Source of the DNA: an uncultured Ruminococcus sp.
GTDB lineage: Bacteria > Bacillota > Clostridia > Oscillospirales > Ruminococcaceae
Assembly (NCBI GenBank): GCA_947177715.1
Contig: CAMWVM010000021.1
Location: forward strand, 1 to 12,582
Direction of reading: 5' to 3'
Length of the DNA: 12,582 nucleotides
Below the pieces are notes generated by a model. The model did not search any database, was not told the DNA's origin, and saw only the letters and a program-made list of their open reading frames with translations. Shown in pieces: positions 977 through 8,467 of this stretch. Positions within the stretch are counted from its first letter, which is position 1, and each line of letters starts with the position of its first letter. The translations under genes were made by a program, and so were the position numbers.

Positions 977-2041
977 TTATTTTGCAAATGAAACATGGTC
1001 ACCTTTATTTACTATCACTTTGCAGCCTATTGACTCCATACGTTTTTTCATACATACTACACACTGGGCTGACTCGTCCCCTGTACAGATTTTATTATCA
1101 TAGAGCATATATTTTTTTCTAACGGCTAACGGAGAGAGATTTGGCATTACCACATTTGCTCCTGCTAAAATCCCCTTTTCTCTGCCCATTGGATTGATTG
1201 TACCCAAAGCAGTGGTGGACGGTATCAGTGCAGTTGGCAATGTAAGCCGTATCAAGCCTATCATGAACAAAGTTTGCTCCATAGTCCCTGATGGCATATG
1301 AGCAAAGGGCGTATCCTTATGAGAAATAAAAGGACCGATACCGACCATATGCGGCTGCAATTCTTTCAGAAAAAGCATATCTTGGGCAAGATTTTCGGGA
1401 GTTTGAAAAGGAGAACCGACCATAAATCCTGTGCCCACCTGATATCCGATTTCTTTCAGGTTCCAAAGGCACTGCTTTCGGTTTTCGGCTGACAAATCCT
1501 GTGGGTGAAGCCTGTTGTAATGCTCATTATCAGCTGTTTCATGCCTAAGCAGATATCTATCTGCACCTGAATCAAAATATGCTTTATACTGCTCAAAGGT
1601 TTTCTCACCTATGGACAAGGTAACCGCACAATCGGGAAAACATTTTTTTATTTCCTTGATGATACTGACAATCTTATCATCGGTATAATAACCGTCCTCA
1701 CCACTTTGAAGGACAAAGGTGCGAAATCCTAAGCGGTATCCCTCGTCACAGCAGGACAGGATATCTTTTTCGCTAAGACGATATCTTTGAACGTTGGAAT
1801 TACTTCGTCTTATACCGCAATATAAGCAATCATTTTTGCAATAATTTGAAAATTCAATTAATCCCCTGATGTAGACGTCATTATTATAATATCTTTCCCT
1901 GATTTTTCTTGCTTTTGAAAAAAGATAATCAGAGGTATTGGGGTTCTGATTTTTTATAAGAAAAGAATACTCATCAGCAGTTAAACGAGAATTTTTCTCC
2001 AGTTTATCTATAAGAAAAAATGAATTGTAAATCTTAATCAT
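977..2041 (-). CDS. hydE: [FeFe]-hydrogenase maturation radical SAM enzyme HydE
   Basis: HydE is a cytoplasmic radical SAM enzyme that works with HydG and HydF to build the 2Fe subcluster of [FeFe]-hydrogenase. The protein has 354 residues, normal for the family. The radical SAM motif is C68-X3-C72-X2-C75 in the context FSNYCKNDCLYCGIRR. A second cysteine set, C319-X7-C327-X2-C330, sits near the C-terminus and has the spacing of the auxiliary Fe-S cluster site found in part of the HydE family, so this enzyme probably keeps that site. Other HydE-like segments are LQSGEDGYYT, LRHETADNEHYNRLHP and GTINPMGREKGILAGANVVMP. The ATG overlaps the stop of the upstream TM1266-type gene in an ATGA (2038-2041). 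Its TGAGGAGGA ribosome binding site lies inside that gene, which suggests translational coupling. hydG follows about 20 bases later. Confidence 0.96.
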   Translation of the reverse strand: MIKIYNSFFLIDKLEKNSRLTADEYSFLIKNQNPNTSDYLFSKARKIRERYYNNDVYIRGLIEFSNYCKNDCLYCGIRRSNSNVQRYRLSEKDILSCCDEGYRLGFRTFVLQSGEDGYYTDDKIVSIIKEIKKCFPDCAVTLSIGEKTFEQYKAYFDSGADRYLLRHETADNEHYNRLHPQDLSAENRKQCLWNLKEIGYQVGTGFMVGSPFQTPENLAQDMLFLKELQPHMVGIGPFISHKDTPFAHMPSGTMEQTLFMIGLIRLTLPTALIPSTTALGTINPMGREKGILAGANVVMPNLSPLAVRKKYMLYDNKICTGDESAQCVVCMKKRMESIGCKVIVNKGDHVSFAK

Positions 2042-2295
2042 TCCTCCTCATCAAAAACTTTTGAATATATGGTTTTAGTAGACACACCCTTAAGTTTTCC
2101 CAGCTTTCCCGACAAGGCACTAATGACATCATTAGGTGCATCCAATGCAACGCTTATTATATTCAATTTTTGTTTAACATGGGGTATACCCATTCTTCCA
2201 ATTATATATTGATTATACTGGTGCAATATTTCATTTATATGCTTTGCACATTCAGTATCTTCGACCATTATACCAATAAGTGCTGCTCTATTCAT
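2038..2295 (-). CDS. TM1266-type small protein of the [FeFe]-hydrogenase maturation operon (putative iron-only hydrogenase system regulator)
   Basis: This 85-residue protein resembles the TM1266 family, small ferredoxin-fold (ACT/NikR-C-like) proteins encoded beside hydE, hydF and hydG and usually annotated as iron-only hydrogenase system regulators. Matching features are the N-terminal strand with VEDTECAKHINEILHQY, the central IIGRMGIPH segment, and the alternating hydrophobic strand NIISVALDAPNDVISALSGKLGKLKGVSTKT. No DNA-binding helix-turn-helix is visible, so a direct transcription-factor role is not supported by the sequence. The ATG is preceded by TTAGGAGT at a good distance. It is the first gene of the operon, lies immediately downstream of a leader terminator, and overlaps hydE by 4 bases. 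The biochemical role is not established for the family as far as I know. Confidence 0.85.
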   Translation of the reverse strand: MNRAALIGIMVEDTECAKHINEILHQYNQYIIGRMGIPHVKQKLNIISVALDAPNDVISALSGKLGKLKGVSTKTIYSKVFDEEE

Positions 2296-2469
2296 AAAAA
2301 ACTCCTAACAAATAAAAAATCCCTGCTCTTTAAAGAAAAGACAGGGAAACAAAGCCTTTAGGATAAGGCTTGAATTACACATATATCAGTCTTTTCCGTC
2401 AGAACATATCTTCCGGTAAGAAAATAACAATCAATTCCCCGTCAGGGTAATCCTTTCAGGTCATTTTAC
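2296..2469 (-). promoter_or_regulatory. Structured 5' leader of the hyd maturation operon, candidate riboswitch or attenuator
   Basis: The leader of about 174 nt has several complementary segments. GGATTAC (minus strand, 2447-2453) can pair with GTAATTC (2372-2378), seven pairs with one G-U, closing a domain of about 80 nt. Inside it a CCG/CGG plus GAA/TTC hairpin lies around 2396-2417, and two copies of CTGACGG are present. Next comes a perfect 7-base hairpin AAGCCTT/AAGGCTT (2352-2371), then an intrinsic terminator. GACGGGGAA (2435-2443) can pair with the terminator 5' arm TTCCCTGTC (2340-2348), nine pairs with one G-U. GAAAAGAC (2389-2396) can pair with the overlapping GTCTTTTC (2335-2342), eight pairs. 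These are candidate antiterminators. I do not recognise a known riboswitch consensus. The pairings are read directly; the regulation is inferred. Confidence 0.6.
2314..2347 (-). terminator. Intrinsic terminator in the hyd operon leader
   Basis: TCCCTG (2342-2347) and CAGGGA (2320-2325) form a 6-base GC-rich stem, extended inside by TCTTT/AAAGA pairing, and six T residues follow directly on the minus strand (2314-2319). It lies about 18 bases before the TM1266-type start codon and downstream of a strong promoter. It must therefore be bypassed for the operon to be expressed. Confidence 0.75.
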
Positions 2470-2475
2470 TAATTT

Positions 2476-2504
2476 AGTATACTATACTTTTTTCTAATTG
2501 TCAA
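2476..2504 (-). promoter_or_regulatory. Sigma-A promoter of the hydrogenase maturation operon
   Basis: On the minus strand a consensus -35 TTGACA (2499-2504) and a near-consensus -10 TATACT (2476-2481) are separated by exactly 17 bases. The expected start of transcription is near 2469, giving an untranslated leader of about 174 nt before the TM1266-type gene. Such a strong core promoter suggests that control acts after initiation, in the leader. Confidence 0.85.
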
Positions 2505-2668: not shown

Positions 2669-3463
2669 GTGTTATCTGAACTTAAAATCGTAACGGCGGT
2701 AAACAAAACATCATATGGACGTCAGCTGAATAAAACTTTTGATGCGATGGGTTTTGACATATTCAAAGCTGAATCTGATCCTGTTTTAATCGAAATTGAA
2801 GTTGTAAGAAACAACCCGGATGTTGTTATTTTAAACTCTGACAACATGGATTTTGACTCTATTGAAAGACTGTCAAAGCACCTTTCAGGACTTGAAAAGC
2901 CTCCATATATTTTTGCTTTATACACCTATGAATCATCAGATATTGACAGGATGTCCAAGCTTAATAATTTGGTTACCATAGAAATGCCGATTAAATTTAC
3001 AAAATTGTGCGATGAAATACAGCGCATACACTCTATGACAACGATAACTTTAGAGCAAGTATACACTGAGATAAATGAAAAGATAGTGGAAATTCTGACG
3101 GTGTTGAAATTTTCGTCAAAGATGTTCGGATATATGTATATTAGAGAGGCACTTTTTGTTGTAGCTTGTTCTGGCAAGGCTAAAATCAACTTTTCCAGAG
3201 ATATTTATCCTGAAGTAGCTAAGAAATTCAATAGCAACACTGCTTGTGTTGAACGTGCTATAAGAGTAGCAATTAACAAGGCGTGGTCTAAAATGTCCGT
3301 TCACATAAAGAAGATATTTTTCAGTCCTGAAACTCTTAAAAATCACGAAAAGCCTACTAACAATGAATTTATTCTAACTATTGGGAATTACATACATGAC
3401 GAATACCAAACATTTTTAGAAAAGGCTGAAAAAGCTGAAAAAGTTAAAATAACAGTGAATTAG
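2669..3463 (+). CDS. Spo0A-like transcription factor with a degenerate receiver domain
   Basis: The protein has 264 residues, close to Spo0A. The C-terminal half (about 138-250) matches the Spo0A DNA-binding domain: GYMYIREAL, YPEVAKKFNSN, VERAIRVAINKAW and KPTNNEF align with GYLYLREAI, YPDIAKKFNTT, VERAIRHAIEVAW and KPTNSEF. The N-terminal half (about 5-115) looks like a receiver domain, but its active site is gone. The Asp pair of VADDN reads VTAVN (A10, V11), the phosphoacceptor position in PDVVILN is N56, and the conserved Lys before Pro reads M106. It is therefore unlikely to be activated by the phosphorelay and may act constitutively or respond to another signal. The recognition-helix region also differs (NTACVER for TASRVER). 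The start is GTG with GAGGTGA just upstream. The C-terminus is a short Lys/Glu/Ala-rich tail. It may be a divergent paralogue or the organism's only Spo0A relative; the window cannot decide. Confidence 0.85.
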   Translation: MLSELKIVTAVNKTSYGRQLNKTFDAMGFDIFKAESDPVLIEIEVVRNNPDVVILNSDNMDFDSIERLSKHLSGLEKPPYIFALYTYESSDIDRMSKLNNLVTIEMPIKFTKLCDEIQRIHSMTTITLEQVYTEINEKIVEILTVLKFSSKMFGYMYIREALFVVACSGKAKINFSRDIYPEVAKKFNSNTACVERAIRVAINKAWSKMSVHIKKIFFSPETLKNHEKPTNNEFILTIGNYIHDEYQTFLEKAEKAEKVKITVN

Positions 3464-7378: not shown

Positions 7379-8467
7379 TTATTCTATCAACGTTCTTTCG
7401 TCACAATAGTCGCAAATTACGGTATCGCCGTTACCACGGAAATATCTTGGCAGATATGTTTCCTGATGTGTAATACACTTAGGATTTGAACAGCTTACTC
7501 CGTTATACACTTTTCCGTACATGAGTGGTGCGGGCTTGCCGTCATTTTTCAATATAGTCAATATAAGCGCCATTCTCACATACATACCATATTTAGCTTG
7601 TTTAAAATACAGCGCTCTTTTATCATCATCGACTTCAATCGCAATTTCATCTACTCTCGGCAAAGGATGAAGCACAATCAAGTCGCTTTTGGCTTTTTTC
7701 ATTTTCTCCTTATCAAGGATATAGCTGCCTTTCTGCTGCTGATACTCATCCTCAGAATTAAAGCGTTCTTTTTGAATTCTTGTCATATAAAGAACATCAA
7801 GCTCGTCCATAGCATCATCAAGGCTTGTAACCTCTTTATATTCATATCCGCCTGCCGAAAGCAAGTCTTTGATATAAGAAGGCAAGGCAAGCTCTTTTGT
7901 TGATATAAGCACAAATTTTGTACCCTTAAAGCAACTCATAGCTTTAATTAAGGAGTGCACTGTTCTTCCGTTTTTCAAATCTCCGCACAGTCCGATTGTA
8001 AGATTCTCAAGTGTACTCTTCTCTTCCTTCAAGGTGAGCAGATCGGTCAAGGTTTGAGTTGGGTGTAGATGTCCGCCGTCACCCGCATTAATAACAGGGC
8101 ATTCAGCAGTTAAAGCTGCTGCTCTGACTGAACCTGCGACAGGATGACGCATTACCATAATATCGGCATAGCCGGACACGATTTTAGTTGTATCTTTAAT
8201 ATTTTCGCCCTTTGCAACCGATGATGTTTGAGGATTATCAAAACCTATTAGAGTTCCGCCAAGTCGCAGCATTGCTGTCTGAAATGACATTTGTGTTCTT
8301 GTTGACGGCTCATAAAACAAAGTTCCCATTATTTTACCCTTACAGGCTTCTTTATAATTATCGGGATTTTCAATGATTTCATGGGCAAGATTTAAAATCT
8401 TATTCCACCATGAAACCGGATAATCATTAAGGTCAATCAAATTTATTCTGTCATTATACACGCACAT
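7379..8467 (-). CDS. pyrB: Aspartate carbamoyltransferase catalytic chain with a fused PyrI-type zinc domain
   Basis: This enzyme condenses carbamoyl phosphate with aspartate, the committed step of pyrimidine synthesis. Active-site motifs are intact: S55-T-R-T (carbamoyl phosphate loop), SSVAKGE with K86, MRHP with R107, H136-P-T-Q, and HPLPR at 267-271. A normal catalytic chain is about 305-310 residues; this one has 362. The extra C-terminal part carries C326-X4-C331-X20-C352-X2-C355, the zinc-site arrangement of the PyrI regulatory chain (CxxxxC...CxxC), in the context [13 protein letters not shown] and VICDYCDE. The nucleotide-binding N-terminal domain of PyrI is absent. The fused zinc domain probably supports assembly contacts without CTP/ATP control; this is inference. 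The ATG at 8467 has GAAAGG about nine bases upstream. It has its own promoter and a structured leader. Confidence 0.95.

Follow-up and report, generated by a model that had tools for sequence, protein, structure and literature searches.

Several bacterial regulators act on the leader RNA of the genes they control, and the sites that they recognize are built in different ways. PyrR binds a loop in the pyr attenuator that is asymmetric and contains a purine-rich bulge. Antiterminator proteins of the LicT/BglG type bind the RAT hairpin, the loops of which are asymmetric as well; there the protected hairpin is itself the antiterminator, or a part of it, and protein binding stabilizes the antiterminator and turns the genes ON. 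ANTAR-regulated leaders present two hexaloop hairpins with conserved loop bases, and ribosomal proteins provide examples of translational autoregulation. To our knowledge, the regulation of [FeFe]-hydrogenase active-site assembly is poorly known, and neither a mode of action nor an RNA-binding relative is known to us for the TM1266 protein family, which is annotated only as 'putative regulator'.

The leader studied here lies on the minus strand (2504-2296) of a 12,582-nt stretch of DNA (hereafter the window, meaning the whole stretch that was analyzed), which is contig C21 of a 1.74-Mb Ruminococcus assembly in 277 contigs that is 80% complete. It stands 5' of TM1266-hydE-hydG, all on the minus strand: a TM1266-family gene of 85 aa with a NikR-sensor-like fold (2038..2295; PF21699, E 7.4e-31; TIGR03959, E 1.1e-31), hydE (977..2041; TIGR03956, E 2e-178) and hydG, truncated by the contig end (3..956; TIGR03955, E 4.1e-194, profile positions 1-313 of 470). 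A Shine-Dalgarno-like AGGAG of the TM1266 gene was read from the sequence at 2302..2306. Divergent from the hyd operon, at 2669-3463 on the plus strand, is a gene for a protein with a Spo0A C-terminal domain (under the NCBIfam Spo0A cut-off). Further along, the minus-strand gene at 7379-8467 encodes an aspartate carbamoyltransferase that may be a fusion of the PyrB-PyrI type, its residues 317-359 matching PRK00893, a regulatory-subunit family, at a score under the cut-off of that family.

A preliminary description of this DNA had proposed a near-consensus promoter, a leader of about 174 nt, a terminator made of a hairpin plus six T, and two upstream segments complementary to the 5' arm of that terminator, and all of these held up. 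The sigma-70-type promoter (2476..2504, minus strand) consists of a -35 box TTGACA (2504-2499) and a -10 box TATACT (2481-2476) spaced by 17 nt, with 11 of 12 consensus matches, and TTGACA-17-TATAMT could be read upstream of the leader in four relatives of the same genus (G012, G003, G009 and G011). The leader runs for ~174 nt up to the ATG at 2295 and contains, at 2314..2346, an intrinsic terminator with a hairpin at 2346-2321 and a U-tract TTTTTT at 2319-2314 (-12.6 kcal/mol). A pattern scan for terminators missed this hairpin, presumably owing to its bulge; its five core pairs are all kept in 5/5 same-genus leaders. The first complementary segment, GAAAAGAC (2396-2389), overlaps the 3' strand of a conserved hairpin described below as unit 2 and forms 8/8 pairs with the terminator 5' arm (2342-2335) in all five same-genus leaders, pair changes included. 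The second, GACGGGGAA (2443-2435), is the 3' strand of unit 1 and a candidate alternative antiterminator strand, forming 9/9 pairs, one of them G-U, with 2348-2340 in the window (constrained fold, -39.1 kcal/mol). Minimum-free-energy folds of the window also place a spacer hairpin at 2352..2371 (minus strand), after the units and before the terminator. The window leader folds better than 197 of 200 shuffles (z -2.6), and its energies are -41.1 kcal/mol with units and terminator formed, -38.6 kcal/mol in the antiterminator state and -45.2 kcal/mol for the free minimum; by these calculated values (-41.1 vs -38.6), the two states are close enough for switching.

The conserved core of the leader differs from the one first drawn, which was a seven-pair helix (2453-2447 with 2378-2372) enclosing a compact domain of about 80 nt. 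The helix is complementary in the window (7/7 pairs) but is not conserved in the same genus, where G012, G003, G009 and G011 keep 2, 5, 4 and 2 of its seven pairs, respectively. It also overlaps the conserved unit 1, and a fold that combines it with the terminator reaches -37.4 kcal/mol, compared to -41.1 kcal/mol for units plus terminator. On the lost pairs and the energies, we dropped the helix and the 80-nt domain as a core. The enclosed domain is no unit: the conserved parts are two separate hairpins, at 2464-2434 and 2420-2391. Thus, conservation and covariation in relatives were found for these hairpins and were lacking for the drawn helix and domain.

Each of the two hairpins is a copy of one unit of ~31 nt, both strands of which read CUGA-N4-RAAG. 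Written out, the unit follows the formula CUGA-N4-RAA(R)-loop-(Y)UGA-N4'-RAAG. From the outside in, a CU/AG step is followed by a tandem GA/RA mismatch, 3-4 helical pairs and another tandem mismatch (RA/GA), and the tip is an apical stem-loop whose length is free across copies. Unit 1 (2434..2464, minus strand) has an outer AU/AU step, a GA/GA loop, a CCUG/CGGG helix, an AA/GA loop and an AGG/CCU apical stem; by itself it folds into the unit hairpin (-10.4 kcal/mol). Its pairs are kept 9/9 in G012 and 8/9 in G011, G003 and G009 being cut short at the 5' end in the five-leader alignment so that unit 1 was not judged in those two. Unit 2 (2391..2420, minus strand) has an outer CU/AG step, a UA/AAA loop, a CCG/CGG helix, a GA/GA loop and an AGA/UCU apical stem; it folds alone to -9.2 kcal/mol and keeps 7-8 of its 8 pairs in the five same-genus leaders. 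Its 3' strand is one half of the antiterminator. When the whole leader was searched by BLAST against 100 relatives, G012 matched over the full length (77%) and G003 and G009 matched in a block of 37-43 nt, ~100 nt upstream of TM1266, which is the unit 2 region (92% identity over 37 nt in G009 and 88% over 43 nt in G003); otherwise the matches were mostly short and due to chance.

Reading the sequence upstream of TM1266 in fetched loci, we saw the words CUGA and RAAG, inverted, in many genera. Model R1 was built from 23 such examples chosen by eye (alignment A3), whose own covariation is therefore weak evidence, and the later searches serve as its test. Unit 1 of the window is one of these 23 training rows as well as a match of the R1/R2 models (2467-2430, 32.7 bits), and unit 2 scores weakly by itself (17.8 and 19.0 bits). 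The final alignment, A7, holds 106 matches from 94 chosen loci, 103 of them distinct, loci with coding false positives alone having been excluded beforehand. In the distinct copies, 95.3% of the pair cells are standard pairs, compared to 68.4% in shuffled alignments and at most 49.7% when slid, and 236 cells carry two-sided changes as opposed to 67 in shuffles (score 0.678 vs 0.207), figures that are biased toward the model since the alignment was fitted to it. How many of the pairs show any two-sided change at all (8/9) is uninformative, as 64 of 500 shuffles reach that number. Across the same 103 copies, strand 1 reads C97 U103 G86 A100, then R102 A102, and strand 2 reads C72 U89 G91 A95, then R103 A103 A96 G97; given this near-identical consensus of both strands, the RNA duplex is dyad-symmetric. 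What marks a cis-regulatory structured RNA, a covarying structure conserved at related genes, was thus found, and on the strength of these alignments and pairings the leader before TM1266-hydE-hydG is a real attenuator with a conserved, covarying RNA element.

That the leader could not be matched to a familiar riboswitch class, as initially noted, was borne out by the search of Rfam 15, in which no family reached its own gathering score in the window (E <= 5), in six relatives (E <= 2) or in 15 further loci (E <= 1). Weak matches fell on 2388-2312 of the window, below unit 2 (NsiR1, 23.1 bits with gathering at 39; anti-hemB, 18.2 bits with gathering at 49.5), and over unit 2 of locus L062 (anti-hemB, 18.4 bits, gathering 49.5, E 1.4); NsiR1, anti-hemB and L10-leader identities were rejected on scores far under the gathering thresholds. 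An ANTAR-regulated leader was rejected because the apical loops of the aligned copies vary both in length and in sequence, and a LicT/BglG RAT on the RAAG strand that element and antiterminator share, hence being mutually exclusive. The novelty of the element thus rests on comparison with Rfam 15 and with the systems known to us, without a literature search.

The models found the element mostly at TM1266 and the hyd maturation genes. R1 gave 35 matches in 120 relatives (E <= 0.1), 31 of them at TM1266/hyd genes and four coding false positives (two in polA), which we discarded. With R2, 60 matches were obtained in 291 genomes of the class (E <= 0.05): 41 share the strand of a listed HydG and precede it by 0-5 kb, as judged by position alone, 14 lie at TM1266, between hydE and hydG, or upstream of aspA-hydF, and the five not among these 55 were discarded as false or unplaced. 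Among 299 genomes of the phylum (E <= 0.01; three genomes were already in earlier sets), 13 of 14 matches were at TM1266/hyd genes. The yield was lower in the 23 genomes of named TM1266 loci (E <= 0.1), with nine of 14 well placed and five false or unplaced, and model matches in G512 and G745 were likewise discarded. In 99 genomes of the order Bacteroidales, three of four matches fell exactly on the TM1266 gene, with its AUG inside the element. These three loci (L237-L239) and the source Bacteroidales locus L084, which scores more weakly, all have the TM1266 start codon within the element, in L237 as CUG AUG GAA AAG. At these loci strand 2 consists in part of the coding start MEKR, which leaves strand 1 as the independent part; the overlap may be a sign of translational self-control of TM1266. 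Although the E-values are rough, the association between the element and these genes is too strong for chance.

The genes first behind the element are TM1266, hydE, hydF, hydG, aspA, a GNAT gene or a FecCD-like permease (names other than TM1266 and HydG were read by eye from translations of the relatives). Among 13 same-genus genomes with TM1266, the tandem leader lies upstream of it in four (G012, G003, G009 and G011) and the element lies downstream of it in seven (G002, G005, G006, G008, G010, G013 and G015); it was not found in G001 and G014. Tandem units occur in the window genus and in G091, G067 and G270, and in two loci (L160 and L161) tandem elements precede a GNAT acetyltransferase-hydG-hydF unit. 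A tie to TM1266 by position alone was rejected, as the element also heads hydE-hydG-hydF, GNAT-hydG-hydF, aspA-hydF and hydG units with TM1266 elsewhere; in G527, G561 and G662, for instance, it heads hydE or hydF. Conversely, units in G258, G348, G174 and G250 combine the element with TM1266 where no hydE, hydF or hydG was read, the one in G258 (locus L209) continuing from TM1266 with a FecCD-like permease, an ATPase and a NifH-like gene. Six same-genus relatives (L118, L119, L121, L122, L123 and L166) show the order TM1266-[element]-hydF-hydE. In all of these except L118, NifH-like and NifD-like translations were read further downstream, so that H-cluster maturases adjoin a nitrogenase-like cluster, and in L120 a NifH-like gene directly follows TM1266 and the element. 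Elsewhere (L217, L218, L183 and L214), as judged from translations, TM1266 and the element adjoin SsuA-like ABC transporters or ECF-type membrane components, neighbors that hint at a transported signal or cofactor.

We surveyed the sequence behind the element in 60 chosen leader-type sites, with SD-type sites excluded. By script, terminator-like hairpins of -8.9 kcal/mol or lower were identified in 57 of them; none was picked in L083, L182 and L209, and the pick in L159 is doubtful. Compared to shuffles, the alternative pairing between element and terminator was modest (mean z -1.4; 22 of 60 sites in the best 5%; 30/200 for the window alone). When each element was instead paired with its own and with foreign terminator arms, the own arms were favored (mean -11.7 vs -8.5 kcal/mol, matched by 0 of 20000 permutations), and they remained so when arms were swapped only among those of like GC content (-11.7 vs -9.0 kcal/mol, 0/20000). 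This comparison has n = 48: 11 near-duplicate or weak rows were dropped, leaving 49 of the 60 sites, and L187 has no terminator under the tighter limits. A second arrangement is found where eight of the 60 class matches end 11-16 nt upstream of the hydG match start, positions at which the 3' strand covers the hydG Shine-Dalgarno region. The sites thus appear to be of two kinds: transcription attenuators, with a terminator and an exclusive antiterminator that share the regulatory strand, and putative translational operators, with the Shine-Dalgarno sequence or start codon in or beside the 3' strand, at hydG and at three Bacteroidales TM1266 starts. The two kinds of platform agree in their predicted sign, the folded hairpin turning the genes OFF; as judged from the pairing tests, the units and the antiterminator strand are putative competitors.

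The TM1266 protein of the window has 85 residues in the order beta-alpha-beta-beta-alpha-beta (AF2 pLDDT 92.4). Its closest Foldseek match is 2nzc, followed by the NikR sensor domain, and its score against PF08753 (NikR_C) lies just under the cut-off. It has no DNA-binding part, and its conserved basic residues are R3, R34, K64 and K74 (window protein numbering). A comparison of 45 TM1266 proteins that have a detected element nearby to 40 that have none (L068, with a stop in the translated stretch, was dropped) gave no clear difference in conserved residues.

In the genomes of the class, the element tracks TM1266 rather than HydG. It was found in 49 of 175 genomes with TM1266 and in two of 116 without it, four genomes with false matches alone (three of them with TM1266) having been dropped; if they are kept, the counts become 52 and 3. 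Among HydG-positive genomes, the element is present in 42 of 143 with TM1266 and in two of 41 without (p 7e-4), while genomes with TM1266 and no HydG over the cut-off carry it in seven of 32 cases and genomes with neither protein in 0 of 75. A further 39 HydG-positive genomes lacking TM1266, searched with more sensitive filters, gave no element (0/39), an empty result that says little by itself but stands against matches of the same model in congeners, and in four genera (g184, g174, g142 and g199) the HydG-positive members without TM1266 lack it and the TM1266-positive members have it. Many of the sampled genomes are incomplete, and incomplete assemblies can mimic gene loss (G269 is 83% complete). 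Three genomes have a well-placed element and no TM1266 that we found: in G133 the contig ends soon after hydG, where its congeners G222 and G387 carry TM1266, and G308 and G685 are 93% and 94% complete, respectively. The element stayed below threshold in 126 of the 175 TM1266-positive class genomes, so either the element, though common, is not universal, or the model misses certain copies that have diverged too far.

We propose that TM1266, a NikR-sensor-like protein without a DNA-binding domain, probably acts in trans by binding this palindromic, cis-regulatory RNA operator and represses, with OFF logic. Slightly better than even, in our estimate, is the broader claim that the TM1266 family is an RNA-binding sensor controlling H-cluster assembly and, in certain genomes, clusters of transporter or nitrogenase-like genes as well, across the relatives of the window bacterium (Clostridia by their named records) and the Bacteroidales. 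With the units folded and held, the RAAG strand would be barred from the terminator 5' arm, the terminator would form, and transcription would stop before TM1266-hydE-hydG; with the units open, the RAAG strand would pair with the terminator arm and the genes would be transcribed. At other loci, the folded hairpin would cover the hydG Shine-Dalgarno sequence or enclose the TM1266 start codon and so block translation. The holder of the hairpin would be TM1266 as a symmetric oligomer, one half-site per subunit, feeding back on the operon that encodes it and on hyd genes at other sites, perhaps in response to iron or to some other signal related to the H-cluster. We read the element, its covariation, its association with genes and the alternative pairing from sequence, and from these we infer the holder, a symmetric protein on a symmetric RNA being the simplest reading.

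The main rival to a TM1266 operator is a metabolite or ion riboswitch, in which both unit loops would form the aptamer and a ligand (iron, SAM, an H-cluster intermediate or a transported compound) would stabilize the unit, leading to termination or Shine-Dalgarno occlusion, with TM1266 as just one of the regulated genes. A transcriptional riboswitch was also the original reading of this leader, and part of it stands: a conserved, covarying RNA, coupled to terminator and antiterminator, at H-cluster maturation genes. The expression-platform logic would be identical, and a small, widespread element that precedes several different first genes, occurs in tandem in some lineages and stands with transporter-like genes in a number of units, as is typical of riboswitches, would suit this rival well. 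Yet the evidence leans to a protein effector, since the core is palindromic with two-fold symmetry, the element keeps company with TM1266 rather than HydG, even in units in which no hydE, hydF or hydG was read, it was not found in the 39 HydG-positive genomes without TM1266, and in Bacteroidales it sits on the TM1266 start codon. We therefore regard a riboswitch as possible but unlikely, bearing in mind that the element and TM1266 could co-track simply as parts of one regulon, that coding constraint explains some of the Bacteroidales match, and that a ligand-binding RNA could be palindromic too. Quite improbable, in our view, is an attenuator to which a different protein from the H-cluster or Fe-S system binds, TM1266 having its role elsewhere: dyad symmetry would suit any dimer and the TM1266 association could be indirect, but seven class genomes have the element and TM1266 with no HydG over the cut-off, and no other gene is common to the contexts read. 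An attenuator based on a leader peptide, or a simple terminator whose complementarities are due to chance, has its terminator and complementary segments and hardly any likelihood left; we consider it refuted by the conservation and covariation of an element that recurs at TM1266/hyd genes, Bacteroidales included. A leader-specific pairing that beats 20000 permutations and an ATG in unit 1 that opens a frame of only two codons (ATG ACC TGA) also count against it.

For the question of how cells regulate [FeFe]-hydrogenase active-site assembly, the element offers TM1266 a candidate target and predicts a regulon in many genomes. It also adds a palindromic type of RNA operator, in which the dyad logic usual in DNA operators is read on RNA.

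Among the systems named at the outset, the pyr attenuator controlled by PyrR is similar in that the regulator gene heads the operon, hairpin binding would favor the terminator over the antiterminator, and there are several sites per operon; unlike it, the element has no Rfam match, and TM1266 matches NikR_C by profile and fold, not PyrR. The RAT hairpin of LicT/BglG also contains two internal loops of similar make-up with a few pairs between them, and a symmetric dimer of the protein reads it, as is proposed here, whereas the held hairpin here would exclude the antiterminator (OFF). Autoregulation of the ribosomal-protein type resembles the Bacteroidales arrangement, where the start codon of TM1266, the presumed regulator, lies within the element, but elsewhere the element appears to drive transcription attenuators or covers the Shine-Dalgarno region of hydG. 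In metabolite riboswitches, with platforms both transcriptional and translational, a conserved RNA core is likewise combined with a variable platform and OFF logic; in contrast, the core of this element is palindromic and tied to one protein family, and no Rfam class matches it. Finally, TM1266 resembles the C-terminal sensor domain of the nickel repressor NikR in fold and, under the cut-off, weakly in profile, but at 85 aa it lacks the ribbon-helix-helix DNA-binding domain, so that NikR's mode of binding DNA is not open to it, and a palindromic RNA operator would probably take the place of DNA.
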